A stretch of 64,000 nt of DNA from Candidatus Binatia bacterium (GTDB lineage Bacteria; Vulcanimicrobiota; Vulcanimicrobiia; Vulcanimicrobiales; Vulcanimicrobiaceae). Below the pieces are notes generated by a model that worked only from the letters and a program-made list of their open reading frames with translations, did not search any database and was not told the origin of the DNA. Location: NCBI GenBank assembly GCA_035544215.1, contig DATKHY010000007.1:62001-126000 (forward strand). Direction: 5' to 3'. The position numbers were made by a program, and so were the translations under genes. How positions within the stretch are numbered: the stretch's first letter is position 1; every line of letters starts with the position of its first letter. Shown one piece after another: positions 21,034 through 35,871 of the stretch.

Positions 21034-22044
21034 TTATCGAGAAAGTCGTAGAACTTCAGGCCTGAACTCCAAGTCCGGGATGGTTTCCACGTAGGGCGGG
21101 CGCACGATGCCGGACTCCGTGACGAATGCCGTGACGAGATGGCCGGGCGTCACGTCGAACGCGGGATTGTACACCACCGCACCCTCGGGTGCCGCACGGC
21201 TGCCGGCGAACGCCGCGACCTCGTCGGCGGCGCGCTCCTCGATCGGGATCGCGTCGCCGCTCGAGAGACTGAAATCGAACGTCGAGCGCGGAGCCGCGAC
21301 GTAAAACGGAATCCCGTGGTGCGCGGCGAGGATGGCCAGCGCGTAGGTGCCGATCTTGTTCGCGGTGTCGCCGTTGCGCGCGATGCGGTCGGCGCCGACG
21401 ATCGCGAGGTCGATGCGCTGCCGCTTCATCGCGATAGCCGCGGCCGCGTCGACCATGAGCACGGCGTCGACGCCCGCGTGACGAAGCTCGAGGTAGTTCA
21501 GCCGCGAGCCCTGCAGCAGGGGGCGCGTCTCGTCCACGAAGACGCGGGGCTTCTTTCCGCCGCGATGCGCGGCGATGATGACGCCCAGGGCGGTGCCGGC
21601 GCCGCCGGTGGCGAGCGGTCCGGTGTTGCAATGGGTCAGCACGCGAGCACCCTTCCCGATCAGCTCGAGTCCGTTCTCGGCGATCGCCGCGTCGATCGCA
21701 ATCTGCTCCTCGTGGATCGCGCGCGCTTCCTCCAATGGATCGGCGGCGGCGAGGACCCGGTCGACGGCCCAGGCCAGGTTCACCGCGGTCGGACGCGCCT
21801 CGCGCACGCGCCGAGCGACTCGCTCAAAGAGCTCGTCGTCGTCGATCGTTCGACGCAGCAACGCCGTTCCGTAGGCGGCGAACACGCCGATGCACGGTGC
21901 GCCGCGCACGGCGAGGCTCTTGATCGCCGCCTCGATGTCCTCGACGGTTTTGGCTCGCTCGTGGCGCACTTCATGCGGCAGCAGGCGCTGGTCGAGATAG
22001 ACGACGGCGTCGCCGTCCCACGCGATCGGCGCGAACGACGTCAT
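21034..22044 (-). CDS. mtnA: S-methyl-5-thioribose-1-phosphate isomerase
   Basis: A 336-residue enzyme of methionine salvage that isomerises methylthioribose-1-phosphate to the ribulose form. Family motifs: SLAVRGAPCIGVFAAYG, VLTHCNTGPLATGGAGTALG with the catalytic cysteine, VDETRPLLQGSRL, DLAIVGADRIARNGDTANKIGTY with the catalytic aspartate, and YNPAFDVTP. The start at 22044 (MTSFAPIAWDG) overlaps the ribH stop as ATGA. The longer frame upstream is ribH shadow. Confidence 0.95.
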   Translation of the reverse strand: MTSFAPIAWDGDAVVYLDQRLLPHEVRHERAKTVEDIEAAIKSLAVRGAPCIGVFAAYGTALLRRTIDDDELFERVARRVREARPTAVNLAWAVDRVLAAADPLEEARAIHEEQIAIDAAIAENGLELIGKGARVLTHCNTGPLATGGAGTALGVIIAAHRGGKKPRVFVDETRPLLQGSRLNYLELRHAGVDAVLMVDAAAAIAMKRQRIDLAIVGADRIARNGDTANKIGTYALAILAAHHGIPFYVAAPRSTFDFSLSSGDAIPIEERAADEVAAFAGSRAAPEGAVVYNPAFDVTPGHLVTAFVTESGIVRPPYVETIPDLEFRPEVLRLSR

Positions 22045-22532
22045 CGAAACCCCGCCCGAGGGATGTCCGAGTTCACGCTCAGCAGCGTCGCCGCCGCGAG
22101 GGCCGCCGCGTAGCCCTTGTTGCCGCGCTGCGGATCGGCGCGCTCCTCCGCCTGCTCCAAATTGTCCGTCGTGAGGATGCCGAAACCGATCGGAACGCCG
22201 GTCGCAAGCTGCACGTCCATGATGCCCCGCGCACACTCGCCCGCGACGAAGTCGAAGTGCGGCGTCTCGCCGCGAACGACGGCGCCGAGCGCAACGAGCG
22301 CGTCGAAGCGGTCGGCTTCGATCAGGTTGCGGCAGGCTACGGGCACTTCGAAGCAGCCGGGAACCTCGTAGACGCTGACGTGGTCGGCGGCGACGTTGCA
22401 CGCCCGCAGCGCCGTCTTAGCCCCCTCGACGAGCCGGTCGGCGATCTCGGGGTAAAAGCGCGCCACGACAATCGCGAAGCGCCGGCCGGCGCAGTCGGGG
22501 GCCGGCGGCTTGCGCGCGCCGTTGACCTTCAC
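22041..22532 (-). CDS. ribH: 6,7-dimethyl-8-ribityllumazine synthase
   Basis: A 163-residue lumazine synthase, the penultimate riboflavin enzyme. It has FAIVVARFYPEIADRLVEGA, YEVPGCFEVPVA, the phosphate-binding loop ALGAVVRGETPHFDFVAGE with the catalytic histidine, and the substrate contact VPIGFGILTTDNLEQAEERA. The start is GTG at 22532, overlapping the ribBA stop as GTGA; the stop overlaps mtnA as ATGA. Confidence 0.95.
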   Translation of the reverse strand: MKVNGARKPPAPDCAGRRFAIVVARFYPEIADRLVEGAKTALRACNVAADHVSVYEVPGCFEVPVACRNLIEADRFDALVALGAVVRGETPHFDFVAGECARGIMDVQLATGVPIGFGILTTDNLEQAEERADPQRGNKGYAAALAAATLLSVNSDIPRAGFR

Positions 22533-23938
22533 GACGCGGCCTCTTCGTCGAGTATGTGGCCAAGCTTCGAGCGCTTCGTAGCGATGTAGTGCTTGTTGTG
22601 CGCCGTCGGTGTGGTCTGGAGCGGCATCCGGCCGACGATCTTGAGGCCGTACCCCTCGAGGCCGAAGATCTTCTTTGGGTTGTTCGTGATCAGTCGCATC
22701 TCGCGCACGCCGAGGTCGACGAGAATTTGCGAGCCGATGCCGTAGTCGCGTTTGTCGGCCGGCAGCCCGAGCGCGAGGTTCGCCTCGACGGTGTCGGCGC
22801 CGCCGTCCTGCAGCTCGTACGCGCGCAGCTTGTTGGCAAGACCGATGCCCCGGCCTTCCTGCCGCAGATAGAGAAAGACGCCGCGGCCTTCGTGCGCGAT
22901 CACGCGCATGGCCCCGTCGCGCTGCGCCGCGCAATCGCAGCGAATCGAGTGCAGCGCGTCGCCGGTCATGCACTCCGAGTGTACGCGAACGAGGATCTCC
23001 TTCCCGTCGCCGATCTCGCCCATTATGAGCGCCACGTGAGTGTTCTCGTCGATACTCGTGTTGTACGCAACGCCCTTCCACTCACCCAGCGTCGTCGGCA
23101 GAGAGAACTCCGCGATCTTATTCACGAGCTTCTCGGTGCGCATGCGATACGCGATGAGGTCTTTGACGGTTACGAGCTTGAGCTCGTGGCGGTCGGCGTA
23201 GCTGCGCAATCCCACCAGACGTTCCATCGTGCCGTCTTCGGCCATGACCTCGCAGATCACGCCGGCCGGATACAGACCGGCGAGGCGCGCGAGGTCCACG
23301 GCGGCCTCGGTCTGCCCGGCGCGCACCAGCACGCCGCCCTCGCGCGCCCGCAACGGGAACGTGTGTCCGGGCCGCAGGAAATCCGCCGGCTTCGCCTCCG
23401 GGTCGATCAGCCTCTTGATCGTCGCGGCGCGGTCGTGAGCGGAGATTCCCGTCGTCGTCACTCCGCGCGCCTCGACGGAAACCGTGAATGCAGTCTCGTG
23501 AACGGCGGTGTTGTCGCGCACCATCTGCGGGATGTGAAGTTCGTCGAGGCGGGCTCCGACCATCGGCACGCAGATCAGTCCGCCGGCGTGCTTGCGCATG
23601 AAGTTGATCGCGGCGGGCGTGACCATTTGCGCCGCCATCACGAGGTCGCCCTCGTTCTCGCGGTCCTCGTCGTCGAGCACGACGACCATCTTTCCGGCAC
23701 GGACGTCGGCGATCGCATCGGCGATCGTGTCGAACGGCCCGTGCCGCCCCGCCGGCTGTTCGCCGAGCTCCGGGAGCACCTGGCTCAGACGCTGCAGCGT
23801 CCGGTACGAGGGCTCGCGCCGGCCCGCGCGCAGAAGCGAAATGGCCGACTCGGTCAGGCCCGACTCCTCGGCCAGCTCAGCGGCCGAGAGGCCTGCCGCC
23901 TCCATGGCGCCATTGAGCGTGTCTGCAAAGCTGTCCAT
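22529..23938 (-). CDS. ribBA: RibBA (DHBP synthase / GTP cyclohydrolase II) with N-terminal XRE-type HTH domain
   Basis: A 469-residue three-part fusion. Residues about 5-57 form a Cro/XRE helix-turn-helix: AAGLSAAELAEESGLTESAISLLRAG is cut here to its ends AAGLSAAEL and AISLLRAG, followed by REPSYRTLQRLSQVL. Residues about 68-265 are RibB (DDEDRENEGDLV, TTTGISAHDRAATI, RPGHTFPLRAREGG). The rest is RibA, with the zinc site CMTGDALHSIRCDCAAQ and the LRQEGRGIGLANKL motif. ATG at 23938 is the only sensible start. The two catalytic parts make both riboflavin precursors; the DNA-binding part suggests autoregulation at the palindrome just upstream. Confidence 0.95.
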   Translation of the reverse strand: MDSFADTLNGAMEAAGLSAAELAEESGLTESAISLLRAGRREPSYRTLQRLSQVLPELGEQPAGRHGPFDTIADAIADVRAGKMVVVLDDEDRENEGDLVMAAQMVTPAAINFMRKHAGGLICVPMVGARLDELHIPQMVRDNTAVHETAFTVSVEARGVTTTGISAHDRAATIKRLIDPEAKPADFLRPGHTFPLRAREGGVLVRAGQTEAAVDLARLAGLYPAGVICEVMAEDGTMERLVGLRSYADRHELKLVTVKDLIAYRMRTEKLVNKIAEFSLPTTLGEWKGVAYNTSIDENTHVALIMGEIGDGKEILVRVHSECMTGDALHSIRCDCAAQRDGAMRVIAHEGRGVFLYLRQEGRGIGLANKLRAYELQDGGADTVEANLALGLPADKRDYGIGSQILVDLGVREMRLITNNPKKIFGLEGYGLKIVGRMPLQTTPTAHNKHYIATKRSKLGHILDEEAAS

Positions 23939-23945
23939 AGGCTTC

Positions 23946-23974
23946 TAGACTAGCCGGTACTTGACAAATGTCAA
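23946..23974 (-). promoter_or_regulatory. Putative ribBA promoter
   Basis: Minus strand: -35 TTGACA at 23974-23969, then a weak -10 (TAGTCT) about 16 bp later. The predicted RNA start would be within roughly 10 bp of the ribBA ATG, giving a very short or absent leader. There is no room for an FMN riboswitch. Confidence 0.35.
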
Positions 23975-23975
23975 G
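23960..23975. promoter_or_regulatory. Perfect palindrome, candidate operator between ribBA and a small divergent gene
   Basis: CTTGACAAATGTCAAG has two perfect 7-bp arms (CTTGACA/TGTCAAG) around AA. It covers the likely -35 of ribBA and a TTGACA on the other strand. The size and symmetry fit a dimeric XRE-type HTH protein, such as the one fused to RibBA 22 bp away. Confidence 0.55.
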
Positions 23976-23994
23976 GTGATATAGTCGTTTACGC

Positions 23995-24174
23995 ATGCCG
24001 AAGCGGAAGAGAGCCAAGATCGTTCCCCGCATGGGTCCGCCAACGAATCTGCGCAAGGCTGGAGCTCACGAGGACAAGCGCGACAAAGCCTTAGAGCGAT
24101 TGGAGCGCGAGGAGCAGCATGAGCTCGACGACCTCAGCGCACTCGGTTCTTGGGCCTTCGACGAAGACGAGTGA
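23995..24174 (+). CDS. Small charged protein of unknown function
   Basis: A 59-residue open frame starting ATG at 23995 and ending TGA at 24174. It begins MPKRKRAKIVPRMGPP, has a highly charged helical middle (DKALERLEREEQHELDDL) and ends acidic (WAFDEDE). The sharp basic-to-acidic layout and clean frame look like a real protein. It diverges from ribBA across the palindrome at 23960-23975, so both may be controlled together. I recognise no family. Confidence 0.55.
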   Translation: MPKRKRAKIVPRMGPPTNLRKAGAHEDKRDKALERLEREEQHELDDLSALGSWAFDEDE

Positions 24175-24243
24175 GCGAGGACGTCGAGAAGGTCGGACCG
24201 TGTGCCCGTGAAACGGTAGGTTAGAGGCCAAGCCACCCCTCAC

Positions 24244-24250
24244 AAGGAGG
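24244..24250 (+). promoter_or_regulatory. Ribosome binding site of the beta-propeller lipoprotein
   Basis: AAGGAGG lies 7 bp before the ATG at 24258. It is a near-perfect Shine-Dalgarno sequence and fixes the start. Confidence 0.7.
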
Positions 24251-24257
24251 CTCTAAA

Positions 24258-25286
24258 ATGATTGGTCCCGTTGGCCGTGAGATTCTTACCGCGGCTATAA
24301 TCGCCGCGGCTCTCGGCCTGTCTGCATGCGGCGGAGGATCGGTGAACCCGCCCGCCGGCGAGCCCGCTTCCGCCCTGCGTTCGACGGTCACTCCGGGCGC
24401 GTTTCCGGACTTGACCAAGCCCAGTCTTTACGTCGCCAACTTCTACGGGTCCACGGTGACCGTTTATGCGCCGACGGCGAAAGGGAACACCAAACCGTTG
24501 CATACCATCGCGGGCTCGAAGACCGGACTAAAAGGGCCGTACGGCGTCGCCGTCGATGCCGGCTATAATGTTTCCGTCGTGAACACGAATGGCGGCCCCT
24601 CATCGACCGGCAGCGTGACCGTTTACAAATCGGGCGCTTACGGAAACGTCGCGCCGACACGCACGATTGGCGGCTCGAACACGGGCCTGTTTTATCCCTT
24701 CGGCATCGCTCTGGATTCGAGCAAAAATGCGTACGTCGCAAACTACAACGGACAAAGCGTGACCGTCTACGCGGCGAGCGCGAAAGGCAACGTGGCCCCG
24801 ATCCGGACCATTAGCGGCCCGAACACCGGACTGTTCTATCCCGAGGGCATCGTCTTGAGTGGAACCGGAAAGACCTACGTCGCGAACTCGAGCGGCGCCA
24901 GCGTGACCGTTTACCCGGCTGGTGCGAATGGCAACGTCACGCCCGTCCAGACCATCAGCGGATCGAACACCGGGCTGAACCAGCCCCAAGGCATCGCTCT
25001 AGGCAACTCAAAGATCTATGTCGCGAACTTCGCCGGGAGCGTGACCGTCTACAGGTTGGGGGCAAACGGTAACGCCGCGCCCGTCCAAACCATCAGCGGC
25101 TCAAACACTGGGTTGAACGAGCCATTTGGCGTCGCCGTCAAAGGGTCGGTCCTGTACGTTGCAAACGAAAGCAACAACACGATAACGGTTTACTCTGCGA
25201 CCGGCAGTGGTAATGTTGCCCCGATTAGGACCATAAGCGGCTCGAACACAGGCCTGAATGGGCCGGCGGGCATCCTACTGCACTGA
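24258..25286 (+). CDS. Beta-propeller (NHL/YVTN-like) lipoprotein
   Basis: A 342-residue protein with a signal peptide and lipobox (LGLSAC, Cys near residue 23), so it is exported and lipid-anchored. Six repeats of about 45 residues follow, each with YVAN, SVTVY, GNxAPxxTI, SGSNTGL and PxGIA elements; this is the blade pattern of NHL or YVTN propellers. Such proteins are often binding scaffolds. Low-complexity linker residues separate the anchor from the propeller. There is no operon partner: the next gene is on the other strand. Confidence 0.85.
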   Translation: MIGPVGREILTAAIIAAALGLSACGGGSVNPPAGEPASALRSTVTPGAFPDLTKPSLYVANFYGSTVTVYAPTAKGNTKPLHTIAGSKTGLKGPYGVAVDAGYNVSVVNTNGGPSSTGSVTVYKSGAYGNVAPTRTIGGSNTGLFYPFGIALDSSKNAYVANYNGQSVTVYAASAKGNVAPIRTISGPNTGLFYPEGIVLSGTGKTYVANSSGASVTVYPAGANGNVTPVQTISGSNTGLNQPQGIALGNSKIYVANFAGSVTVYRLGANGNAAPVQTISGSNTGLNEPFGVAVKGSVLYVANESNNTITVYSATGSGNVAPIRTISGSNTGLNGPAGILLH

Positions 25287-25314
25287 CGCCTTAGCCTAAA
25301 ATAGCCTATCGCGT

Positions 25315-27111
25315 TTAGCAGCCTTTCGAGCGGGAGGCGATCACGTAGTTCGCTGACTTCAGCGTCTCGTCATAGCAGCGGTATCCCTGCAGGTTGCGCA
25401 GCTTGTACTGCTGCCGGCTCTTGCCGTTCGACGGCGTGAAGCCAGACGGCGTAATCGTCAGCGTATCCGACGACTGCACGACGTTGAGCAGCGACCACGG
25501 CAGATCGTTGAGGACTCCGCTCTGGTTCTTCGTCTGTGACACTGCGGTCGTTTGGGTGGAGCTGCTTGCGGTCCCGACCGAGTTGTAGTCGACCGTCAGC
25601 GGCCAGTTACGCTGCTCGCGGATCTTCTGCGTACCATTCTTCGTGATGATCACGATATCCGAGGCCACCAGCGTGTCTTGCTTGATGTCTTGCAGATACT
25701 GGCTCGAGGTCACGTCGATCTTCTGAACGTTCGAGAAGTGGATGCTCTGCAACACGCGAGTATCGATCCGGCCCTTCGACGTGATCACGTAGCCGTTGAC
25801 GAACACCGCGTGTGTCGCCGTCGTCGCGATCGTTCCCCGCGTGCCGCCGCTCTTCGTGGTCTTGACGTCCTCGTCGACCTTCTCGTCGGGGGTGCCCGGC
25901 GTGCCGTCGCTAATGAGCCTTCCGGTCACGACCTTCGAGCCGTGATCTTCGTAGACGAGCAGCGCCGCGTTCGCCGCGAAGTAGTTGTTGTCGTTGTAGA
26001 CCGACACGGCGATCGTGTGCGGGTTGCCGTCGTCGAGCTGTCCCGCGAAGGGCGTCAGATTGATGCGGTACGGCACGAAGTTGAGCGTCTCGACCCCGGG
26101 TATCGGGATCCACAGGAAGGGGTCGATTCCGCCGGTGTAAATCCACGGATAGACCGGAACCACGCCTGCCGGATGGTTGTCCACGCTCACCTCGCCCTCG
26201 CGAAACGCGGTGTTGCCGCAGTTGTTTAGCTTCGATGCGAGGTCGTTCGGGAAGCACGTGTACCAGAACTCGTCCCCTCCCTGCGATTCGAGAAACACAT
26301 CCAGATACGCGGCCGCGACGTTGGTCGGGAACGTGAAGCTGCCGGTCATCTGGCTCGACGCGGAGTTCAGGTCGACATATCCTCCCGTAGGGCCGCCGGA
26401 CAGCGGATAGACGGCGTCGGCGGCATGGGCGGCCGGATACTGCGAGGTGGCGGGATAGAAGTCGAGCTCGGCCGATCCGTAGATGATGCCCGTGTACTGC
26501 GTGTTCACGATGTTGTACACGGAAGCCTGACCCGTGGATTTCTGCGCGAAGATCGGCGCATATTCCGACACATCACGCTCCACGGTCCATTCGGGGCTCG
26601 CGTGCGCGCCGGGCTCCGAGGTCGTTCCGAAGAAGATGTTCGTCGCGCCAACCCAGACGGCGCCGGTGCGATCATACTGCACGCCCGCCGAGACCCTGAA
26701 GTGCATCTTGAAAACGATCTTGGCGTACGGACCGGGGCAGTTCGCCGGCGGCTCGTAGTGGAACGGATGATCCTTATAATCGGCGAACTTGCCGACGCGC
26801 AGGTCGCCCTTATTGATCGGGGGCGTGCGCGGCGTGAACAGCACGTCCACGCAGGGCGCCTCGTTCGGAACCTGCACGCGCGGGACGGCCGTTGCGGGGT
26901 AACCGGCTCCGCCGTGCGCCGCCTTCGAACCGGCTGCATCGCCGAGCGCGCGAATTCGCTCCGCGGCTCGCTGCATCGAGAGTGGCCCGGTCGCAATCTG
27001 CGAGGGCACCCCCGGCACGCCTGGCGCGAATCCGGCGCGGCTACACGCCGTCAAACTCCCGGCACATAGCGCGATCGTCGCAATCCAAAGGGGGGCTTTG
27101 GTTACACGCAT
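25315..27111 (-). CDS. Peptide-N4-asparagine amidase A (PNGase A)-like lipoprotein
   Basis: A 598-residue exported protein. The start is ATG at 27111, supported by GGAGG 6 bp upstream. The signal ends in LTAC, a lipobox. The body matches the plant-type PNGase A family: YDRTGAVWVGATNIFFGTTSEP, WTVERDVSEYAPIF, LDVFLESQGGDEFWYTCFPN and VPVYPWIYTGGIDPFLW are diagnostic blocks. Family enzymes release N-glycans from glycopeptides. Here it would act outside the cell, perhaps on plant or fungal glycoproteins. The neighbouring phosphoesterase on the same strand, 24 bp upstream, may be coexpressed. Confidence 0.85.
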   Translation of the reverse strand: MRVTKAPLWIATIALCAGSLTACSRAGFAPGVPGVPSQIATGPLSMQRAAERIRALGDAAGSKAAHGGAGYPATAVPRVQVPNEAPCVDVLFTPRTPPINKGDLRVGKFADYKDHPFHYEPPANCPGPYAKIVFKMHFRVSAGVQYDRTGAVWVGATNIFFGTTSEPGAHASPEWTVERDVSEYAPIFAQKSTGQASVYNIVNTQYTGIIYGSAELDFYPATSQYPAAHAADAVYPLSGGPTGGYVDLNSASSQMTGSFTFPTNVAAAYLDVFLESQGGDEFWYTCFPNDLASKLNNCGNTAFREGEVSVDNHPAGVVPVYPWIYTGGIDPFLWIPIPGVETLNFVPYRINLTPFAGQLDDGNPHTIAVSVYNDNNYFAANAALLVYEDHGSKVVTGRLISDGTPGTPDEKVDEDVKTTKSGGTRGTIATTATHAVFVNGYVITSKGRIDTRVLQSIHFSNVQKIDVTSSQYLQDIKQDTLVASDIVIITKNGTQKIREQRNWPLTVDYNSVGTASSSTQTTAVSQTKNQSGVLNDLPWSLLNVVQSSDTLTITPSGFTPSNGKSRQQYKLRNLQGYRCYDETLKSANYVIASRSKGC

Positions 27112-27135
27112 GGGGGACCTCCGTAGCAAGGGTGA

Positions 27136-28521
27136 TTACCAGTCATCGTCGGGGTCGGCATTGGACGTCGGCTGCGCCAGGAAGTAGTCGCGACCAAGCG
27201 GCGCGCTTACGGGCCTGAAACGCGTCGCGGGCTTCGTGAAGTCGAAGCAATCGAAGAGATCGTCCGCGCGGACGTCGGTCGTGTGCAGCGGCGTCATCCC
27301 GAACGCCCTCTCCGTAAACTTCAGGATGCTGCCGAACTCGTGCTCGTCGTGTGAGATGTAATGCTGCTTTGCGTATGGCGACACCACGATCAGCGGCACC
27401 CTGAATCCGAGCTCGTAGGCATTCAACTGGCGGGGCGCGACGTGATCGTACCATCCTCCCCAGTCGTCCCACGTGATGAATATCGCCGTGTCGTCCCAGT
27501 ACTGGCTCTTGCCGATCGCATTGACGATGCTCGCGACCCAGGACGGGCCCGAGCCGTCGGTGACGCCGGGGTGATCGGACGCGGCTCTAGTGGGTGTCAC
27601 CCACACCACGTTGGCCAGGTCGCCGGCGACGACGTCGTCGAGCACGCGCTTTGCCGGCGCGACAACGTCCGTGCTGTAAAGAGGGCCGTAGCGGACGTTG
27701 CGGATGGCGTCCGGCGCATTCCATAAGCCACGTCCGATGTGTGCCTGGTAGTAGCGCCACGTCAAGCCTTTGGCGGTGATGCGGTCCATCAGCGACACGC
27801 GCGTGAAACAGGGGAATACTTGGCGGTTTTCCTGACCCTGCGGATCGATGACGGATACCAGCGTGCCGGGCTTCGAATCGCAGCCGCCCGAGCCGGAAAC
27901 GCCCTTGTCGTGGGGGTTCTCCGCCGCCCACAGGGGCGACTGGTTGGAGATCGTGGACGTTCCGCTCACCAGGTACTGATGCGCCGGAAAACTCGGCCCC
28001 TGATTGGTCTGGAACATGTGATCCGCGAGCGTGTAGTCTTCTGCCATCGTCCAATACGGCTTGATCTGTTTCTCGGGCACGTAGCCGTACGCGTGCGGAT
28101 CGCTCTGACGGCAGCGACTGCCGGCGTTTTTGTTGCAGTGCGATTGAACGAGGTCGAAACCGTCCATCTTCCCGCCGTCATATTCCGTCACGAATGCGAC
28201 GTGCCTGTGGTCGATGTCCATCGGCTTGTCCAGCGGCTCGGGCAGCAGCGCGACGAGCTTGCCTTTCGAGGACTTCCCATAGTCGACGGTATCCGCGCCG
28301 GGGAAGCGGTGGAAGAGATTGTCGACCGAGCGGTTCTCCTGGATGATGATGACGACGTGCTGGATCTTATGACCGATGCGCGCCGCCGGCGCCGGCAGAG
28401 CCGGGCCGGCCGGAACCATCACGCCGCTCGACGAACCGGCGCCGGCTCCGCCGCAGCCGGCAGCGAACGCCACGCTCAACGTCGCGACGCCGGCCATACA
28501 CCGATGCAGTCGTTTCAACAT
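27136..28521 (-). CDS. Phospholipase C/acid phosphatase-type phosphoesterase, lipoprotein
   Basis: A 461-residue member of the phosphoesterase family that includes bacterial phospholipase C. The signal peptide ends AFAAGC, so it is probably lipid-anchored. Motifs: HVVIIIQENRSVDNLFHRFPG (the N-terminal metal site and the asparagine-arginine of the PlcC family), DHMFQTNQGPSFPAHQYL, FITWDDWGGWYDHVAP and GFRVPLIVVSPYAK. ATG at 28521 is preferred over a TTG one codon upstream. Phospholipid or nucleotide phosphate release is likely. Confidence 0.88.
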   Translation of the reverse strand: MLKRLHRCMAGVATLSVAFAAGCGGAGAGSSSGVMVPAGPALPAPAARIGHKIQHVVIIIQENRSVDNLFHRFPGADTVDYGKSSKGKLVALLPEPLDKPMDIDHRHVAFVTEYDGGKMDGFDLVQSHCNKNAGSRCRQSDPHAYGYVPEKQIKPYWTMAEDYTLADHMFQTNQGPSFPAHQYLVSGTSTISNQSPLWAAENPHDKGVSGSGGCDSKPGTLVSVIDPQGQENRQVFPCFTRVSLMDRITAKGLTWRYYQAHIGRGLWNAPDAIRNVRYGPLYSTDVVAPAKRVLDDVVAGDLANVVWVTPTRAASDHPGVTDGSGPSWVASIVNAIGKSQYWDDTAIFITWDDWGGWYDHVAPRQLNAYELGFRVPLIVVSPYAKQHYISHDEHEFGSILKFTERAFGMTPLHTTDVRADDLFDCFDFTKPATRFRPVSAPLGRDYFLAQPTSNADPDDDW

Positions 28522-28673
28522 CAAGCCGTTTTCATCGCCGCAGATGCGCCGGGGCAGCGCCGGCTAACGTCTCGGCGATCGCGTCCTCCTCCGAGAGTGT
28601 CATCCCCTCGGTTGTATGGCGCCGCAGTTCCTCCTCCGCGAGGTTCACTCGCAACGCGCCGCGTGCCCGAGCG

Positions 28674-28701
28674 CATACTTGAAACGACTGTTTCAAGTAT
28701 G
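28674..28701. promoter_or_regulatory. Perfect 12-bp inverted repeat, candidate TetR operator
   Basis: Arms CATACTTGAAAC (28674-28685) and GTTTCAAGTATG (28690-28701) are exact complements around GACT. The site ends 12 bp before the GTG start of the TetR gene, as expected for an autoregulated TetR-efflux pair. Confidence 0.8.
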
Positions 28702-28713
28702 TTAGGATGGGCC

Positions 28714-29286
28714 GTGTCGAGAACCGCGGACGAGGCGCGGCGCCGCGAGCTGCTGGAGCGGGCCGTCGACTACGTGTGCCGCCACGGCCTGGCCGAGCTG
28801 TCCCTGCGTCCGCTTGCGAAGGCCCTCAAGTCGAGTCCGCGGGTCCTCTTGTACTACTTTGGGTCGAAGGAGAATTTGGTTGTCGAGATCGTGCGGCGCG
28901 GCCGCGCCCGCCAGCAAGCGATGATGGCGACGGTCAAGCTCGCGGGCCTCGCGCCAAAAACGGTGGCGCGCACGCTATGGCGCGAGTGGAGCAAGCCGGA
29001 GTGGGAGCCGCTCACGCAGCTCTCCTTCGAGATCTACGCGCTGGCGCTGCGCGACGCGTCGCGTTTTCCGGGCTACCTCGAGGGCTCGATCCACGGCTGG
29101 CTTGCGGCGCTCGAGGTCTGCACGATGCTGCCCGGTTACACGCGCCGGCAGGCCGAGGCCTTGGGCACGCTGCTCATCGCCGGGTTCCGCGGATTTCTGC
29201 TCGATCTCCTGGCGACGCACGAACGCGCCCGAATCAATCGGGCCGTCGATCTATGGTTGGAGTTTGTGTATGATGCGGCCGAATAG
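28714..29286 (+). CDS. TetR-family transcriptional regulator
   Basis: A 190-residue repressor. Residues about 8-55 form the TetR HTH: LLERAVDYVCRHGLAELSLR, then PLAKALKSSPRVLLYYFGSKENLV, here split for length. The ligand-binding half is helical (WREWSKPEWEPLTQLSFEIY and onward). The GTG at 28714 is preferred because AGGA lies 6 bp upstream; an in-frame ATG at 28699 falls inside the palindrome. Its end overlaps the MFS start, so the two form a repressor-pump unit. Confidence 0.9.
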   Translation: MSRTADEARRRELLERAVDYVCRHGLAELSLRPLAKALKSSPRVLLYYFGSKENLVVEIVRRGRARQQAMMATVKLAGLAPKTVARTLWREWSKPEWEPLTQLSFEIYALALRDASRFPGYLEGSIHGWLAALEVCTMLPGYTRRQAEALGTLLIAGFRGFLLDLLATHERARINRAVDLWLEFVYDAAE

Positions 29287-30538
29287 CGCTCGGCGCGGCG
29301 CGACGATCTTCATCTTCATTACGGTGCTCATCGACATGCTGACGTTTGGCATGATCGGACCGGTGTTGCCAAAGCTTATCGCGAGCTTCGTCGGCAACGA
29401 CTTCGCGCACGCCGCCGAGATCATCGGTCTCTTCGCCACGGTGTGGGCGCTGATGCAATTCTTCTGCTCGCCGCTGCTCGGCATGCTCTCCGATCGTGTC
29501 GGGCGGCGCCCGGTGATCCTGCTGTCCAACGCGATAACCGTCGTCGACTACGCGATCATGGCGCTCGCCCCAAACCTCGCCTGGCTCTTCGCAGGCCGTG
29601 TGCTCTCCGGCGTCGCGACGGCGAACATGACCGCCGCGAGCGCGTACGTCGCCGACGTCAACCCGCCCGAGAAGCGTGCCGCGGCCTTCGGCATGATCGG
29701 CAGCGCCTTCGGGCTGGGGTTCGTCCTCGGTCCCGCGATCGGAGGGCTCGTCGGCAACGTCAATCCCCGCCTGACGTTTTGGGCCGCGGCTATCTTCGCT
29801 CTGCTGAACACCCTCTACGGCCTATTCGTGCTGCCGGAGTCGCTCGCGCCGGAGAATCGGACGCGCCGGCTCGAATGGAAACGCGCGAATCCAATCGGGT
29901 CGCTCGCGCTTTTGCGCTCCCACCACGAGCTGTGGGGCCTGACCTGGGTCAACTTCATCACCTACCTCGCGCACGAGGTATTTCCGAACGTCTGGGTGAT
30001 CTTCTGCATCGCCGCGTTCGGCTGGAGCACGGGGAGCGTCGGCCTCACCCTGGCGCTCGTCGGCACGATCGCGGCGATCAATCAAGCGACGATGATACGG
30101 CCCGTCATCGCGCGCCTCGGCGAGCGACGCACGCTGCTGGCCAGCCTCGTTGTGGCCGCGGCGGGACTCGCGCTGATGGGAACCGGCAACGGCGTCCTGT
30201 TCCTCGTCGCTGCGGCGATAATATCGCTGCCGATGTACCAGGCGTCGTCGCAGGCACTCATGACGCGACGAGTCGGCGCCGCGGAACAGGGTCAGCTGCA
30301 GGGTGCGCTCGGGTCCGTGCGCGGCATCTCGATGTTGATCGGCCCGTTGATCTTCACGCTGACTTTCGCGCAGTTCGCCGGGCCGTGGCGCTCGCTGGGA
30401 TTGATCGGCGCGCCGTGGCTGCTCGCCGCAGCACTGTACGCCGTCTCGCTGGCGATCGCGTGGCGAGTCACCTCGCGCGCCGACGACGTCGTGCTTCCGC
30501 CGCTCGAACCGGCGCCCCCGATCTACGCCGAGGGCTGA
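29270..30538 (+). CDS. MFS transporter (TCR/Tet-like)
   Basis: A 422-residue twelve-segment transporter: ITVLIDMLTFGMIGPVLPKL in the first segment and LGMLSDRVGRRPVILLSN in the loop after the second are diagnostic of the TetA/TCR class. ATG at 29270 has TTGGAG 7 bp upstream; a second ATG follows directly. It overlaps the TetR gene by 17 bp and converges with the alcohol dehydrogenase with a 16-bp overlap. Export of a toxic compound sensed by the TetR protein is the simplest reading. Confidence 0.92.
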   Translation: MMRPNSARRGATIFIFITVLIDMLTFGMIGPVLPKLIASFVGNDFAHAAEIIGLFATVWALMQFFCSPLLGMLSDRVGRRPVILLSNAITVVDYAIMALAPNLAWLFAGRVLSGVATANMTAASAYVADVNPPEKRAAAFGMIGSAFGLGFVLGPAIGGLVGNVNPRLTFWAAAIFALLNTLYGLFVLPESLAPENRTRRLEWKRANPIGSLALLRSHHELWGLTWVNFITYLAHEVFPNVWVIFCIAAFGWSTGSVGLTLALVGTIAAINQATMIRPVIARLGERRTLLASLVVAAAGLALMGTGNGVLFLVAAAIISLPMYQASSQALMTRRVGAAEQGQLQGALGSVRGISMLIGPLIFTLTFAQFAGPWRSLGLIGAPWLLAAALYAVSLAIAWRVTSRADDVVLPPLEPAPPIYAEG

Positions 30539-31539
30539 GCGAAGCTGACGATCGGCTTGACGATGCGCGCCTCCGCCAAGTCGCGATAGGCGCGCGGCAC
30601 GTCGGCGAGGTCCACGAGCGTCGCACCGACTTTCTCAGCCGAGACGACGCCCTGTTCGATCAAGTCGAGCGCCGCTCGCGTGTCCTGCGGTCCCGCCGAA
30701 TAGCTCGCGACCGCACGGAGATCGCCGAAGTAGAAGCGCTCCGAACCAATCGTGAGCGGCACGTCCGGCGGAAACGGCGTGAACATTACGACGGTGCCGG
30801 AAGGCGCAGCGGACTCGAACGCGTGCTCCAACGCGCGCGCGGTTCCCGGCCCGCAGATGACGACCGCGGCTCCGGCGCCGACCACGCGGCTCGCGTCCTC
30901 CGGAGCAAACGCGACCGCGCCGTTGCGCGCGGCGATCGCGCGGCGCGCCTCGATGAAGTCGCTCGCGAACACCTCGGATCCGATTTGCCGCGCCGCCAAA
31001 ACGTGCAACTGCCCCATGACACCGAGGCCGATCACGTACACGCGCTCGCCGGCAGCGGCACCGCCGCGGCGAAGCGATTTCACCACGCAGGCCAGCGGTT
31101 CGGTCAGCGCGGCATCGGCAAACGCAACGCCGTGCGAAAGCCGCAGGGTGTCGCGTTGATTTTCCACGGGCACGCGAAAGTATTCGGCGATGCCGCCCGG
31201 CTCGATCTTGGTGGCACGCCAGGTCGCGCACTGCACGTACTCGGCGCGACGGCATGCCGCGCACTCGAAGCACGGGGCGTGGTGATGCACGAACACGCGA
31301 TCTCCGACCGCGAACGCGCTGCTGCCGCGTACCTCCGCGACGATCCCCGCCGGCTCGTGACCGAGCACGAGCGGCGCCTTGCGCTTGATGTACCAGGGCA
31401 TGACGTCGCCGCTGCAGATGCCGCTCGCCATCGTGCGCACCAGCAGCTCGCCGTCGCCGAGCTCCGGTACCGGGCGCTCCTCGACGCGCACGTCGTCGAC
31501 GTCGTAGAGCACGGCGGCCCGCATCGTGCGCGGGCTCAC
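30523..31539 (-). CDS. Zinc-dependent alcohol dehydrogenase (MDR family)
   Basis: A 338-residue medium-chain dehydrogenase. The catalytic zinc site has SGICSGDV (Cys), GHEPAG (His-Glu) and a distal Glu. The structural zinc lobe is FECAACRRAEYVQC, and the NAD(P) fold has VYVIGLGVMGQLHVLAA. The start is GTG at 31539 (overlapping the upstream stop as GTGA) or ATG at 31524. It is the last gene of a long minus-strand run. The substrate is probably a polyol or sugar alcohol, but this is not resolved. Confidence 0.88.
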   Translation of the reverse strand: MSPRTMRAAVLYDVDDVRVEERPVPELGDGELLVRTMASGICSGDVMPWYIKRKAPLVLGHEPAGIVAEVRGSSAFAVGDRVFVHHHAPCFECAACRRAEYVQCATWRATKIEPGGIAEYFRVPVENQRDTLRLSHGVAFADAALTEPLACVVKSLRRGGAAAGERVYVIGLGVMGQLHVLAARQIGSEVFASDFIEARRAIAARNGAVAFAPEDASRVVGAGAAVVICGPGTARALEHAFESAAPSGTVVMFTPFPPDVPLTIGSERFYFGDLRAVASYSAGPQDTRAALDLIEQGVVSAEKVGATLVDLADVPRAYRDLAEARIVKPIVSFAQPSA

Positions 31540-32567
31540 GGCTCGATCAACGCCTTCAGTCCCTCTCCCGCGTCGAGCCGCCCGAACAGCTCGACGATCT
31601 CGCTTAGCGGTGCGGTGTGCGTGATCAGGCGCCGCAACGGCAGCGTGTGCGCGGCGATCAGATCGTACGCCGCGCGCACGTCGGCCGGCGTGAAGTGGAA
31701 CGGGGCCAGGAGCCGGACCTCGTCGTAATGCAGCCGCGCGGCTAAGAACGAGACGCGCGCCTCGCTCGGTAGACCCGCGAAGAACGACACGACGCCGCCG
31801 CGTCGGACGTACGACGGCGCGCCCTCCCACATCTCCGGGCTTCCCGTGCATTCGATCACCGCGTCGGCGCCGCGGCCGTTCGTGCGCTCGAGGATGACGT
31901 CGCGCATCGCCACGGCCCCGGGGTAGTAACTATCTAGCCCCAGATCGCGGGCGAACGCGACGCGCTCGGCGCGCCGGCCGAAGAGCAGCACGTCGACGGC
32001 CTGGCGCTGCAGCAGCAGCCCGTGTAGAATTCCAAAGCCGCCGTTGCCCAGCACGACGACGGTCGAGCCGGGGGTGGGCTCCAGCATCGCGAGCGAGTGC
32101 GCGACGCACGCGAGCGGCTCAAGAAACGCGCCTTCGGCATAGCTTACGCCGTCCGGCTTGGGATAGCAGTTCTTATCGACCACGCGTTTGGGCAAAGCGA
32201 CGAAGTCCGAATACGCGCCGAGAACCATCGCCGACATAATGCTCTCGCACAGCTCCTCTTGCGAGTGGCGGCACCAGAAACAATGGCCGCACGGCGCGGT
32301 GTGCACGCACATCACTGGGTCGCCGGGCCCAAACGCCGTAACGCCGGAGCCCACCGCGGCGACGTCGCCCGAGAACTCGTGACCGAAGCGCGTCGGCATC
32401 GGCATCTTCGGATGTCCGCGGCGGAACGTCTTCAGATCCGTGCCGTCGGTCAGCGCCGCTCTGACGCGCACGACGATCCCGCCCGGCGGCGCCTCCGGCA
32501 TCGACTCGAGCTGCAGTTCGATCCGCTTGGGCTCGACGAGCATGGCCACGCGCGACGAAGCATTCAC
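31536..32567 (-). CDS. Zinc-type alcohol/polyol dehydrogenase (MDR family), Asp at a catalytic zinc position
   Basis: A 343-residue MDR enzyme, about one third identical in layout to its neighbour. The structural zinc lobe is intact (CGHCFWCRHSQEELC) and GHEFSGDV supplies His-Glu. The first catalytic zinc ligand, normally Cys, is Asp (ALTDGTDLKTFRRGHP), as seen in some sugar dehydrogenases. The nucleotide fold is VVVLGNGGFGILHGLLL. GTG at 32567 overlaps the thioesterase stop as GTGA. The tight coupling of two dehydrogenases suggests one pathway. Confidence 0.87.
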   Translation of the reverse strand: MNASSRVAMLVEPKRIELQLESMPEAPPGGIVVRVRAALTDGTDLKTFRRGHPKMPMPTRFGHEFSGDVAAVGSGVTAFGPGDPVMCVHTAPCGHCFWCRHSQEELCESIMSAMVLGAYSDFVALPKRVVDKNCYPKPDGVSYAEGAFLEPLACVAHSLAMLEPTPGSTVVVLGNGGFGILHGLLLQRQAVDVLLFGRRAERVAFARDLGLDSYYPGAVAMRDVILERTNGRGADAVIECTGSPEMWEGAPSYVRRGGVVSFFAGLPSEARVSFLAARLHYDEVRLLAPFHFTPADVRAAYDLIAAHTLPLRRLITHTAPLSEIVELFGRLDAGEGLKALIEP

Positions 32568-33025
32568 GGCGCGATCGCTTCCCCGACGCAGGCCAGCAAC
32601 GCCGAACGAATCGGCTGCGGCAGCGGCCGGCTCTTCTTCGTCGCCGCGTCGATCGCGGCGACCACGAGCGTAAGGGCGGCTCCCGCCTCCGCCGAGCGTT
32701 CGTTGAACATGACGGTCTGCCAGCGCACGCTCGACGCCCCGACGTGCTCGATGTGCGTGCGCATGCGCAGCCAGTCGCTCATGAGCGCCGGCGCGTGGTA
32801 CTCGGCCTCCACGCGCACCCGAGGCAGCCAGAATCCATACTCCGTGAACACGCTCTCGTACGGAAACCCCAGCTCCGCAAAAAGATGCATCTCGGCGTAC
32901 TCCGCAAACCGCGAGTAGGCCGCGAAATACATGATTCCCACGACGTCGACGTCGGCCCACTGGACCTGGAGCCGGCTCTCGAAGACCCGCGCGCCCTGCG
33001 GAAGCCGGTCGACGAAGCGCGTCAT
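32564..33025 (-). CDS. Acyl-CoA thioesterase (4-hydroxybenzoyl-CoA thioesterase/YbgC type)
   Basis: A 153-residue hotdog-fold protein. FESRLQVQWADVDVVGIMYFA contains the conserved aspartate that defines the 4HBT/YbgC class (QWADVD), here quoted only to its core, and FAEYAEMHLFAELG follows. ATG at 33025 overlaps the ribE stop as ATGA. It lies between riboflavin genes and two dehydrogenases, so its substrate is not apparent from context. Confidence 0.87.
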   Translation of the reverse strand: MTRFVDRLPQGARVFESRLQVQWADVDVVGIMYFAAYSRFAEYAEMHLFAELGFPYESVFTEYGFWLPRVRVEAEYHAPALMSDWLRMRTHIEHVGASSVRWQTVMFNERSAEAGAALTLVVAAIDAATKKSRPLPQPIRSALLACVGEAIAP

Positions 33026-33618
33026 CGTAGGCTCAGGATGACGTCGGCGTAACGAGCGAGCGGATCGACTTCGAGGTTGACGCGGCTGCCCGGCACGCGC
33101 GCCCCGAGGGTAGTTCGCGTCAGCGTCTCGGGGATCAGCGCGACCTCGAACCACTGCGGTCCCGCTGCCGCGACGGTGACGCTCACGCCGTCCAGCGCGA
33201 CGAAGCCCTTGTTCGCGATCATCGGAGCGAGTTGCACGGGCGTCTCGATTCGCAGTCGCTCTCCCTGACCCTCGGGGTTTCGCAGCAAAACGCGCGGCGC
33301 CGCGTCGACGTGCCCGTAGACCAGATGTCCCCCCAGCCGGTCGCCCACGCGCAGCGCGTATTCGACGTTGACCAGCTCGCCCGCCGTCCTCTCGCCCAGC
33401 GTGCTGCACGCGAGCGTCTCGGGAACGACGTCGAACGAAACGACCTCGCCATCGATTGCGGTCGCGGTGAGGCAGACGCCGTCGATCGCTATTGAATCCT
33501 TGGGCTCGACGCGCTCCGCTCGCGCGCCCTCGCAACGCACGGCCAGCGTCGCGCCGCCGTGCGCGTGCGCGTCGAGCGCGACGACCGCGCCGCGGTATTC
33601 GATCAAGCCGCTAAACAT
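33022..33618 (-). CDS. ribE: Riboflavin synthase alpha subunit
   Basis: A 198-residue protein with two homologous lumazine-binding halves. MFSGLIEYRGAV is the family start, and SIAIDGVCLTA and FVALDGVSVTV are the paired ligand motifs of the two barrels. It dismutates two lumazines to riboflavin. ATG at 33618 overlaps the ribD end by 8 bp. Its partner ribH is 11 kb away in locus I. The C-terminal DVILSLR is coded by a sequence resembling the dispersed CTCAGGATGA repeat. Confidence 0.95.
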   Translation of the reverse strand: MFSGLIEYRGAVVALDAHAHGGATLAVRCEGARAERVEPKDSIAIDGVCLTATAIDGEVVSFDVVPETLACSTLGERTAGELVNVEYALRVGDRLGGHLVYGHVDAAPRVLLRNPEGQGERLRIETPVQLAPMIANKGFVALDGVSVTVAAAGPQWFEVALIPETLTRTTLGARVPGSRVNLEVDPLARYADVILSLR

Positions 33619-34720
33619 CGCCGAACGTGCCCGAGAGTATGACATCGTCACCGACGCGTTCCACGTTGTCGAAGCGTGCGCGTACCGCGCGCGACGCGAG
33701 GTCGACGCCGCGGAGCACGGGCACGGCGCCCTCCGCGTGCAGCAAGCGCGGGGCGATGGCCCAATAGAACCGATCGGCGAGGCCGCCGGCGATCAGCCGG
33801 GCGGCGAGCCTCGGTCCGCCTTCGCACAGCACGCTGCAGATGCCGCGCTCGCGCAGCGCCTCCATTGCCTTGGCGAGGTCGAGCGTCACGGCGTCGGCGT
33901 CGCCGATGACAATCACGTCGGCCGCATCCGCGAGAGAGTCGAGTCGCGGCCGCAGGGCCGCCGGAGCGAGCACGATCGTTTTCGCGTAGCCGTCGGCTGC
34001 GACGAAAATGCGGCTGCCGGACGGAACCGCGTCGCGTTCGCACGCCACGATGCGAAGGTACGGGCGCGCGCGATCGTGTTCGGGACGGACCGTCAGCATC
34101 GGATCGTCGATGCGCACGGTTCCCGCACCGACCATCACTGCGTCGTGAACGATGCGAAGCTCGCGCACGTAGCGCTGCTCCGCCTCGGATCCGAGCGGCT
34201 CGCGCAGCCCGGGTGCGGGCGCGACCGCGCCGTCGAGCGACATCGCCATTTTCACAGCAACGTACGGGCGCCGCAGCGCGCTCGCGCGCGCGAAGGGCTC
34301 GATCAGCGCTTCCGCGGCGGCGTCGCCCGCGACGGCGACCTCCACGCCGCGTTCGCGCAACTGCGCGGTGCCGCCGTGCCCCGCCGGGTCGAGCGTGCCG
34401 ACCACGACGCGCACGACGCCCGCGCCGACGACGGCCTGCGCGCAGGGAGGCGTTCGCCCGACGTGCCCGCACGGTTCCAGCGAGACGTAGAGTGTCGCGT
34501 CGCGGGCCCGCGATCCGGCGCCGCGCAAGGCGTTCACCTCGGCGTGCGGAGCGCCGGCGCCATGATGATAGCCCTCGCCGACGACGCGCCCGTCGCGAAC
34601 CACGACCGCGCCGACCGGCGGGTTTGGGGCGGTCTCTCCGAGCCCGCGCGCGGCGAGCTCGTAGGCCCGCTGTAGAAACAGCTCGTCGAGCGGCGTCAGT
34701 TCGGCCCTTAGTCCTCCCAC
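33611..34720 (-). CDS. ribD: Bifunctional riboflavin deaminase/reductase
   Basis: A 369-residue two-domain enzyme. The N-terminal cytidine-deaminase fold has the zinc motifs GAPHAEVNAL and EPCGHVGRTPPC. The C-terminal reductase half has VKMAMSLDGAVA, IDDPMLTVR and LCEGGPRLAARLI. It converts the GTP cyclohydrolase II product to the ribitylamino pyrimidine. Start GTG at 34720, overlapping the comF end by 13 bp. Confidence 0.95.
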   Translation of the reverse strand: MGGLRAELTPLDELFLQRAYELAARGLGETAPNPPVGAVVVRDGRVVGEGYHHGAGAPHAEVNALRGAGSRARDATLYVSLEPCGHVGRTPPCAQAVVGAGVVRVVVGTLDPAGHGGTAQLRERGVEVAVAGDAAAEALIEPFARASALRRPYVAVKMAMSLDGAVAPAPGLREPLGSEAEQRYVRELRIVHDAVMVGAGTVRIDDPMLTVRPEHDRARPYLRIVACERDAVPSGSRIFVAADGYAKTIVLAPAALRPRLDSLADAADVIVIGDADAVTLDLAKAMEALRERGICSVLCEGGPRLAARLIAGGLADRFYWAIAPRLLHAEGAVPVLRGVDLASRAVRARFDNVERVGDDVILSGTFGDV

Positions 34721-35319
34721 GGGTCGCGGCCTTTCGCTACCGCGACGACCACCGCATCCTCAACGACCCCTCCGGCCTCGCGCACTGCCGTGGCGCAGTC
34801 GCGCAGGGTCGAACCGGTCGTGCACACGTCGTCGAAGAGCGTCACCCGCTTTCCGGCGACGCACGCCGCGCGGCATTCGAAGCGGCCGCGGGCGGCGAGA
34901 CGCTGGGTGCGCGAACGCCCGCGCTGCGCGTCGCCGGATCGCTGCTCCAGCGCCCGGACCACGTAGGCGCCGGCGATGGCGGCCGCATGTCCGGCGACCA
35001 GCGCGACGCCGTCCATGCCGCGTACGCGCCGCCGCTTCGCCGTCGTTGGAATCGGGACGAGGATCGCACGCGGTGCGACCAGGTCCGCAACCGCTGCCCC
35101 CAGCGCCTCGGCGACGTCGCGGCGCCCGTCTTTGAGCGCCAGCACCGCGGCGCGCAGGGCGCCTTCGTACGGGCCGAACGCGTTAACCGCGAGTCCGGGC
35201 AATCGGACTACGATCGTTTCGCCGCTCGGCGCGCAGCTCGAACACAATCCGGTGCCGAGCGCGTTGCAGCTCGCGCACTGCGGCGGGAAAAGGACATCGA
35301 GCAGCCGGCGCCACGCCAT
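34708..35319 (-). CDS. comF: ComF-family phosphoribosyltransferase-like protein
   Basis: A 203-residue ComF protein. A four-cysteine zinc ribbon (CASC, CSSC) near the N-terminus is followed by a type I phosphoribosyltransferase fold with the PRPP motif VTLFDDVCTTGSTL. ComF is needed for single-strand DNA uptake in transformation. Whether this cell is competent is unknown, since no other com genes are in the window. Confidence 0.9.
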   Translation of the reverse strand: MAWRRLLDVLFPPQCASCNALGTGLCSSCAPSGETIVVRLPGLAVNAFGPYEGALRAAVLALKDGRRDVAEALGAAVADLVAPRAILVPIPTTAKRRRVRGMDGVALVAGHAAAIAGAYVVRALEQRSGDAQRGRSRTQRLAARGRFECRAACVAGKRVTLFDDVCTTGSTLRDCATAVREAGGVVEDAVVVAVAKGRDPWED

Positions 35320-35346
35320 GCGGCTCGATCACGACGGCTCGGGTGC

Positions 35347-35871
35347 TTATCTAGCGGCGATGGACGAATGCGAGTCGGACGCGAGAGCGGACAGCTCGGC
35401 GGCGAGCACGCCGTCGGGGATTATTCCGCGATAGATGTACCGCACGACTCCTTGGCGGTCGATGAATATGCTCTCAGGGAGTGCGCGCACGTCGAACGTC
35501 GCGGCGAATTGGCCGCGGTCGACGGCTACCGGCGCCGGCATGCCGAGCTGCAGCGCGAAGCTTTGCACGCGGCTCGCGGATTCTTGTTCGTCGACCAACA
35601 GAAAGGCGATGCGGTCGCGATACTGCTGCGCTTGCCGCGCGATCGCCGGAAACTCCCTGCGGCACGGAGAGCACCACGTCGCGAAGACGTTGATGTATGC
35701 CGGAGAACCGTGGAAGTTGCCGTCGACCGATTTTCCGTCCAGCGTATCGAGCACGAATGCCGGCGCGAAATCTCCGGTGGAGAGAGTGCCCGCGCGCGTT
35801 ACCGCAGGCGACCGTGCCGCCGCCAGCGCAACGGCGAGGACTGCCACGGTGCCGAGGATGGTGCGCAACAC
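35347..35871 (-). CDS. TlpA/ResA-type thioredoxin-fold protein
   Basis: A 174-residue protein with an N-terminal hydrophobic anchor (VLRTILGTVAVLAVALAAA) and a thioredoxin domain. The active-site motif is ATWCSPCRREF, and the cis-proline loop LPESIFIDRQG is near the end. TlpA-like proteins reduce periplasmic disulfides, often for cytochrome c or oxidase assembly. The start is taken as GTG at 35871, 17 bp after the nucleotidyltransferase. Confidence 0.88.
   Translation of the reverse strand: MLRTILGTVAVLAVALAAARSPAVTRAGTLSTGDFAPAFVLDTLDGKSVDGNFHGSPAYINVFATWCSPCRREFPAIARQAQQYRDRIAFLLVDEQESASRVQSFALQLGMPAPVAVDRGQFAATFDVRALPESIFIDRQGVVRYIYRGIIPDGVLAAELSALASDSHSSIAAR

Follow-up and report, generated by a model that had tools for sequence, protein, structure and literature searches.

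A conserved dyad at the ribBA promoter is a putative operator of the HTH-RibBA enzyme in Vulcanimicrobiota (Eremiobacterota)

Introduction

The usual account of riboflavin control in bacteria is the FMN riboswitch, a common feedback device on riboflavin genes. The ribBA gene found in the 64,000-nucleotide stretch of DNA analysed here (the window) raises the question of whether an enzyme of the pathway could control its own synthesis. Its product begins with a helix-turn-helix (HTH) domain, and a sequence-only reading had singled out a perfect palindrome at its promoter as a candidate autoregulatory operator. Is this palindrome a functional element, is it tied to the HTH domain, and what would it control? 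The features of the locus are collected in Table 1.

Table 1. Features of the ribBA locus, in window coordinates
Feature	Position	Strand	Remarks
Operator dyad CTTGACA-AA-TGTCAAG	23960..23975	.	Putative; family consensus CTTnACAnnTGTnAAG; 89/89 scored regions and one by hand
ribBA fusion, 469 aa	22529..23938	-	XRE-type HTH + DHBP synthase (RibB) + GTP cyclohydrolase II (RibA)
N-terminal HTH domain, residues 1-56	23771..23938	-	P22 c2/434-like fold, predicted structure
Predicted recognition helix, residues 30-37	23828..23851	-	ESAISLLR
ribH (lumazine synthase)	22041..22532	-	Pfam DMRL_synthase 3.7e-51
mtnA-like gene	21034..22044	-	ORF; overlaps ribH end
-35 hexamer TTGACA, ribBA promoter	23969..23974	-	Inside dyad; 16-bp spacing to TAGTCT
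-10 hexamer TAGTCT	23947..23952	-	8 bases before ribBA ATG

Results

The palindrome and its conservation in relatives

The palindrome had been read correctly, in its position as in its arms: CTTGACAAATGTCAAG at 23960-23975 is made of perfect 7-bp arms and a 2-bp spacer, and 21 bases separate it from the ribBA start codon (23938, minus strand). The exact 16-mer is present as a single copy in the window, and TTGACANNTGTCAA occurs once in the whole 3.23-Mb genome. By itself, the palindrome is statistically unremarkable. The window contains 15 sequences with 7-bp perfect arms and a 2-bp spacer, compared to a mean of 11.3 expected from 20 Markov-1 simulations. Significance comes instead from conservation, which is therefore the test.

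Upstream sequences of ribBA were sampled from Vulcanimicrobiota/Eremiobacterota relatives as 30 loci, 24 loci and 52 further regions, the last belonging to HTH-type genes. The site CTTnACAnnTGTnAAG was found upstream of HTH-ribBA in 90 of 90 readable regions, so that the alignment of orthologues proposed in the sequence-only reading shows the dyad in all those examined. The first two groups provided 38 genomes with an HTH fusion and a readable upstream region; scored on the 12 fixed positions of the consensus, 25 of them match at 12, 9 at 11, 1 at 10 and 3 at 9. Scores could be given to 51 of the other 52 regions (27 at 12/12, 20 at 11 and 4 at 10), and the 52nd, from G091, where unread bases fall inside the HTH, has an 11/12 site that was read by hand. 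The 90 regions take in two genomes with two HTH-ribBA genes each, L191 and L192 in G098 and L174 and L209 in G079, every copy of which has its own dyad; fused genes whose upstream sequence is lost at a contig end (e.g. G024) lie outside this count. The dyad scores at least 10.5 bits in 89 of 89 scored regions, with a median of 25.8.

In a footprint built from one sequence per genus (20 genera), positions T2, T3, C6, G11, T12 and A14 are identical in 20/20, the G033 row being misplaced in it. Flanking columns reach at most 0.60 bits; the sequence around the dyad has therefore changed freely, whereas its two arms have been retained. Perfect symmetry, as claimed for the window, is correct there. 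Across the relatives it is a minority form, position 13 being A in 33, T in 32, C in 22 and G in 2 of 89 sites, and the conserved unit is CTTnACAnnTGTnAAG. Such palindromes are common in the window, as a chance repeat would be, but conservation at one place over 20 genera between flat flanks leaves that explanation virtually no probability.

The dyad accompanies the HTH fusion

We compared fused genes with 14 HTH-less ribBA genes, 13 of family f3 and one from G062, a genome of the window's own family. The dyad is absent from 14/14, the best score within 300 bases being at most 0.4 bits; this contrast in score is partly circular because the 89 fused-gene sites themselves served to train the matrix, a circularity that does not affect the conservation of the right arm. 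The upstream sequence of G062 is informative. It reads TTGACA, a 17-base spacer, TAGCCT and, 6 bases on, the start codon, whereas the right arm is absent. The promoter is therefore separable from the operator.

Scanning with an HTH alignment, one genome per species, yielded 63 loci, of which 59 are visibly joined in frame to RibB and the other 4 have broken, incomplete or motif-divergent frames. The site is present at 9/12 or better in 62 of the 63; at L145 (the G091 locus) unread bases break the frame and the site is the hand-read one. These loci were not added to the 90 because many come from the same genomes. All are labelled Eremiobacterota, Eremiobacteria, WPS-2, Vulcanimicrobiota or 'bacterium', except for two bins, L124 (Alphaproteobacteria) and L134 (Rhodospirillales). 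We take both labels as wrong; L124 nests among the rest in the protein tree, and the L134 contig equals in length (15272) that of G032, which is from the window's family.

The number of events behind this association was addressed with protein trees. The free tree needs two changes, and one suffices in only 2% of bootstrap trees. However, an AU test on 58 thinned rows did not reject a single HTH-less clade of G062 and f3 (p-AU 0.467), so that independent joint loss in G062 is not proved, nor did gene order in G022, G042 and G062 decide whether G062 lost its HTH independently. The association of HTH and dyad may thus trace to one evolutionary event.

Two side observations concern other ribBA-like genes. 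G048 has an additional RibB-like gene, which is divergent (49% identity) and has no HTH; it lies around positions 1150-1900 of L055 and is preceded by the promoter-like sequence TTGACA...TACAAA. G099 and G109, rated 95% and 94% complete, gave no ribBA match at all.

A single target in the genome

The ribBA dyad is the sole site at one mismatch or fewer in the window's genome. When two mismatches are allowed, 33 sites are found versus 23 for a reversed control, and a core-only pattern gives 20 matches versus 10 in its control. The dyad is not present at unrelated genes beyond chance, and the further copies that had been suggested, for example near riboflavin transporters, were not found in this genome at up to one mismatch. 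It was also looked for at ribD-ribE (33022-34720 of the window), where it is absent. Families f1 and f2, which have the fusion, contributed 41 genomes, and coordinates place all 25 exact copies in them before ribBA, one per genome; 2 of the 19 other genomes hold an unrelated site. With no other close site in the genome, the operator would serve ribBA and the genes that follow it. The start codon of ribH overlaps the ribBA stop, which puts it in the same operon, and the next gene, mtnA-like and presumably encoding methylthioribose-1-phosphate isomerase, is probably on the same transcript. The order ribBA, ribH, mtnA is the same in G022, G042 and G062. At locus L241 in G022, HTH-ribBA comes immediately after ribD-ribE, and the dyad lies in the interval that separates ribE from ribBA; an operator at this place can therefore act on a promoter inside a longer rib cluster.

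Promoter layout and doubled operators

On the ribBA strand the sequence reads TTGACA, 16 bases, TAGTCT, 8 bases, ATG. The claim that the palindrome covers the likely -35 thus agrees with a TTGACA at 23974-23969 (minus) followed 16 bp downstream by TAGTCT at 23952-23947, and a scan with a strict promoter consensus returned no match at the site. In 70 of the 89 regions from relatives, TANNNT ends 6-9 bases ahead of the start codon. With a -10 so close, transcription should begin at or beside the ATG, and the sequence implies that ribBA mRNA would be leaderless, with the putative operator over the -35. Such an mRNA has no 5' leader for a riboswitch, so that control must act at initiation. Relative to the inferred start the dyad is centred near -28, between -35 and -10, which is a position for repression.

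The dyad is kept in six genomes whose -35 has changed from TTGACA: G020 (TTAACG), G033 (TTTACG), G065 (TTAACA), G081 (TTGACT), G092 (TCGACA) and G120 (CTGACA). Its distance to the start codon is shorter, 14-16 bases, in G020, G033, G063 and G065, which have no -10 at the usual place; three of these four are also among the six genomes without TTGACA.

These data bear on the view that the dyad amounts to nothing more than a strong -35, mirrored by back-to-back divergent promoters for ribBA and a 59-aa ORF at 23995. TTGACA does appear on both strands in the window, and the ORF has homologues in 3 of 20 other genomes, with which it forms a genuine small family. Nevertheless, we regard this view as very improbable. 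Besides the six genomes that lost TTGACA and kept the dyad, G062 keeps its -35 without the right arm, and the genome's other four TTGACA-N15-18-TANNCT sites lack TGTnAA. Moreover, ribBA was found in two of the three relatives that carry the ORF, and in both the ORF is on a different contig. Overlapping divergent promoters were rejected as a candidate since the two strands of the dyad do not both conserve TTGACA: position 13 is free, with C in 22/89 only, and the mirror strand therefore mostly lacks TTGACA. The ORF itself (23995-24174, plus strand, divergent from ribBA) shares 61-66% identity with its homologues, and its family is not syntenic with ribBA.

A second dyad is located 26-29 bp upstream of the first in 5 of 89 regions, compared to a mean of 0.3 and a maximum of 2 upon shuffling. 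These are L026 (G031), L028 (G032), L025 (G033), L163 (G065) and L176 (G081). With L210 (G091), where a second dyad 30 bp upstream was read by hand, six genomes are doubled in all. The strong dyad of G031 is the upstream copy, the copy at the -35 having decayed.

The HTH domain of RibBA

Pfam profiles assign to RibBA an HTH_3 domain (1e-8, over the cut-off), DHBP_synthase (1.6e-85) and GTP_cyclohydro2 (3.9e-68). The AlphaFold2 model of the HTH has a mean pLDDT of 87; that of full-length RibBA, only moderate with a mean pLDDT of 67, was used solely for the HTH helices and for the fold match to RibBA enzymes. The best fold matches of the HTH include repressors solved on operator DNA, P22 c2 and 434 Cro. 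Alignment with P22 c2 on its operator using VIA-align gave a Z of 10.8 and an rmsd of 1.9 over 64 residues, and Z is 10.0 for 434 Cro; identity is 19-22%, and here the host of the HTH is a metabolic enzyme. In P22 c2 and 434, a palindromic operator lies over a promoter. Four residues of the predicted recognition helix (E30, A32, I33 and S34) are invariant in 27 sequences, as are the signature stretches of both catalytic domains. Comparison by eye of recognition-helix residues with operator variants showed no clear covariation. By profile and predicted fold, RibBA carries a DNA-binding domain of the XRE/HTH_3 class in the same chain as the enzyme.

Two points count against RibBA as the regulator. 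HppE and cyanase are among the fold matches of the HTH, and to our knowledge their fused HTH_3 domains are not DNA-binding regulators; such domains can be non-regulatory, which counts against the operator reading. Secondly, a separate repressor acting in trans could bind the dyad in place of RibBA. The genome has 13 further HTH_3-like profile matches, the best at 3.1e-7, and XRE factors are reported to act in trans on ribA of Wolbachia (PMC3518464). However, the dyad is restricted to ribBA genes whose own product bears an HTH, ribBA is the only conserved target, and no other HTH of the genome comes close to that of RibBA (4.6e-34 for the latter vs 3.1e-7). A separate repressor is therefore improbable.

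Discussion

Taken together, the data make it quite likely that HTH-RibBA regulates itself, the dyad being the operator at which a dimer of the enzyme would repress its own ribBA-ribH operon. The dyad is neither missing upstream of orthologues nor spread over unrelated genes, and its presence follows the HTH fusion, which supports the candidate autoregulatory operator put forward in the sequence-only reading. From this pattern we infer binding and repression: RibBA itself, arranged as a dimer, would be the binder, and the outcome would be negative autoregulation. Both RibB and RibA act as dimers, and a RibBA dimer would therefore offer two HTH domains to two half-sites. In the mechanism that we propose, RibBA of this bacterial group carries its XRE/HTH_3 domain at the N-terminus of the catalytic chain, and the dimer would place the two HTH domains on two CTTnACA half-sites, whose centres are separated by 9 bp, close to one helical turn. 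The bound dimer would lie over the -35 hexamer and the adjoining part of the spacer and so exclude RNA polymerase from a promoter whose ribBA-ribH (probably mtnA) transcript would begin at the ATG or right beside it. In the genomes with doubled operators, the distance of 26-30 bp, approximately three turns, would allow two dimers on one face of the DNA.

Plain negative feedback that senses the level of the enzyme is the default reading, although GTP, ribulose 5-phosphate or a flavin may tune it as a ligand. A different proposal makes HTH-RibBA on the dyad an activator, or a repressor dependent on a ligand that acts as corepressor or inducer, and hence a sensor of metabolites rather than of its own level. 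The RibB and RibA catalytic domains bind pathway substrates, and both are well conserved. Moreover, no FMN riboswitch (RF00050) that could do the sensing was found in 60 genomes, under strict filters with at most 44 candidates scored per genome, or in the 13.5 kb around the locus (22000-35500 of the window). Activation is opposed by the centre of the dyad, whose place between -35 and -10 is one for repression, and we hold this proposal to be rather unlikely. In our full model, riboflavin synthesis in two families of Vulcanimicrobiota (Eremiobacterota) would be under the control of RibBA, the pathway's first enzyme, in place of an FMN riboswitch. Through its fused XRE domain RibBA would repress its leaderless operon in response to a ligand, at a dyad that has one target and in some genomes is doubled, which would allow cooperativity; as a whole this model is put forward tentatively, with well under even confidence.

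Trigger enzymes such as PutA and BirA act as repressors on genes of the pathway to which they belong. HTH-RibBA resembles them as a catalytic protein with its own DNA-binding domain, but differs in HTH family, enzyme and pathway. A conserved operator-like site, the putative operator, lies at the enzyme's own promoter, as in a trigger enzyme. Unlike genes under an FMN riboswitch, ribBA with its inferred leaderless mRNA would leave no space for such an element. In Wolbachia, wBmxR1 and wBmxR2 are reported as XRE-type factors that bind the promoter of the bifunctional RibBA gene ribA and as activators in an E. coli reporter (PMC3518464); they are separate proteins not fused to the enzyme, whereas the HTH is here in the RibBA chain. 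A table entry (PMC8305020) describes RbkR, an archaeal HTH-riboflavin kinase, with the words 'bifunctional as gene regulator and enzyme'. Both are riboflavin-pathway enzymes fused to an N-terminal HTH. However, RbkR is a kinase and archaeal, whereas RibBA joins DHBP synthase to GTP cyclohydrolase II, has no riboflavin kinase domain and has one conserved target, the enzyme's own gene. By analogy, HTH-RibBA would be the bacterial counterpart of RbkR. No such enzyme-regulator appears under the regulator terms of a 2025 review of riboflavin regulation (PMC12542839), and titles and abstract openings of the open-licence literature yielded no description of the HTH-RibBA fusion.

The locus presents an enzyme as its own apparent regulator in an unusually clean layout, with one operator, one target and a leaderless transcript. 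Natural variants, namely the HTH-less G062, the doubled operators and the altered -35 sequences, open the mechanism to direct tests. Metagenomes are the main source of knowledge on this phylum, to which the dyad adds a defined candidate operator and a bacterial parallel to the archaeal enzyme-regulator.
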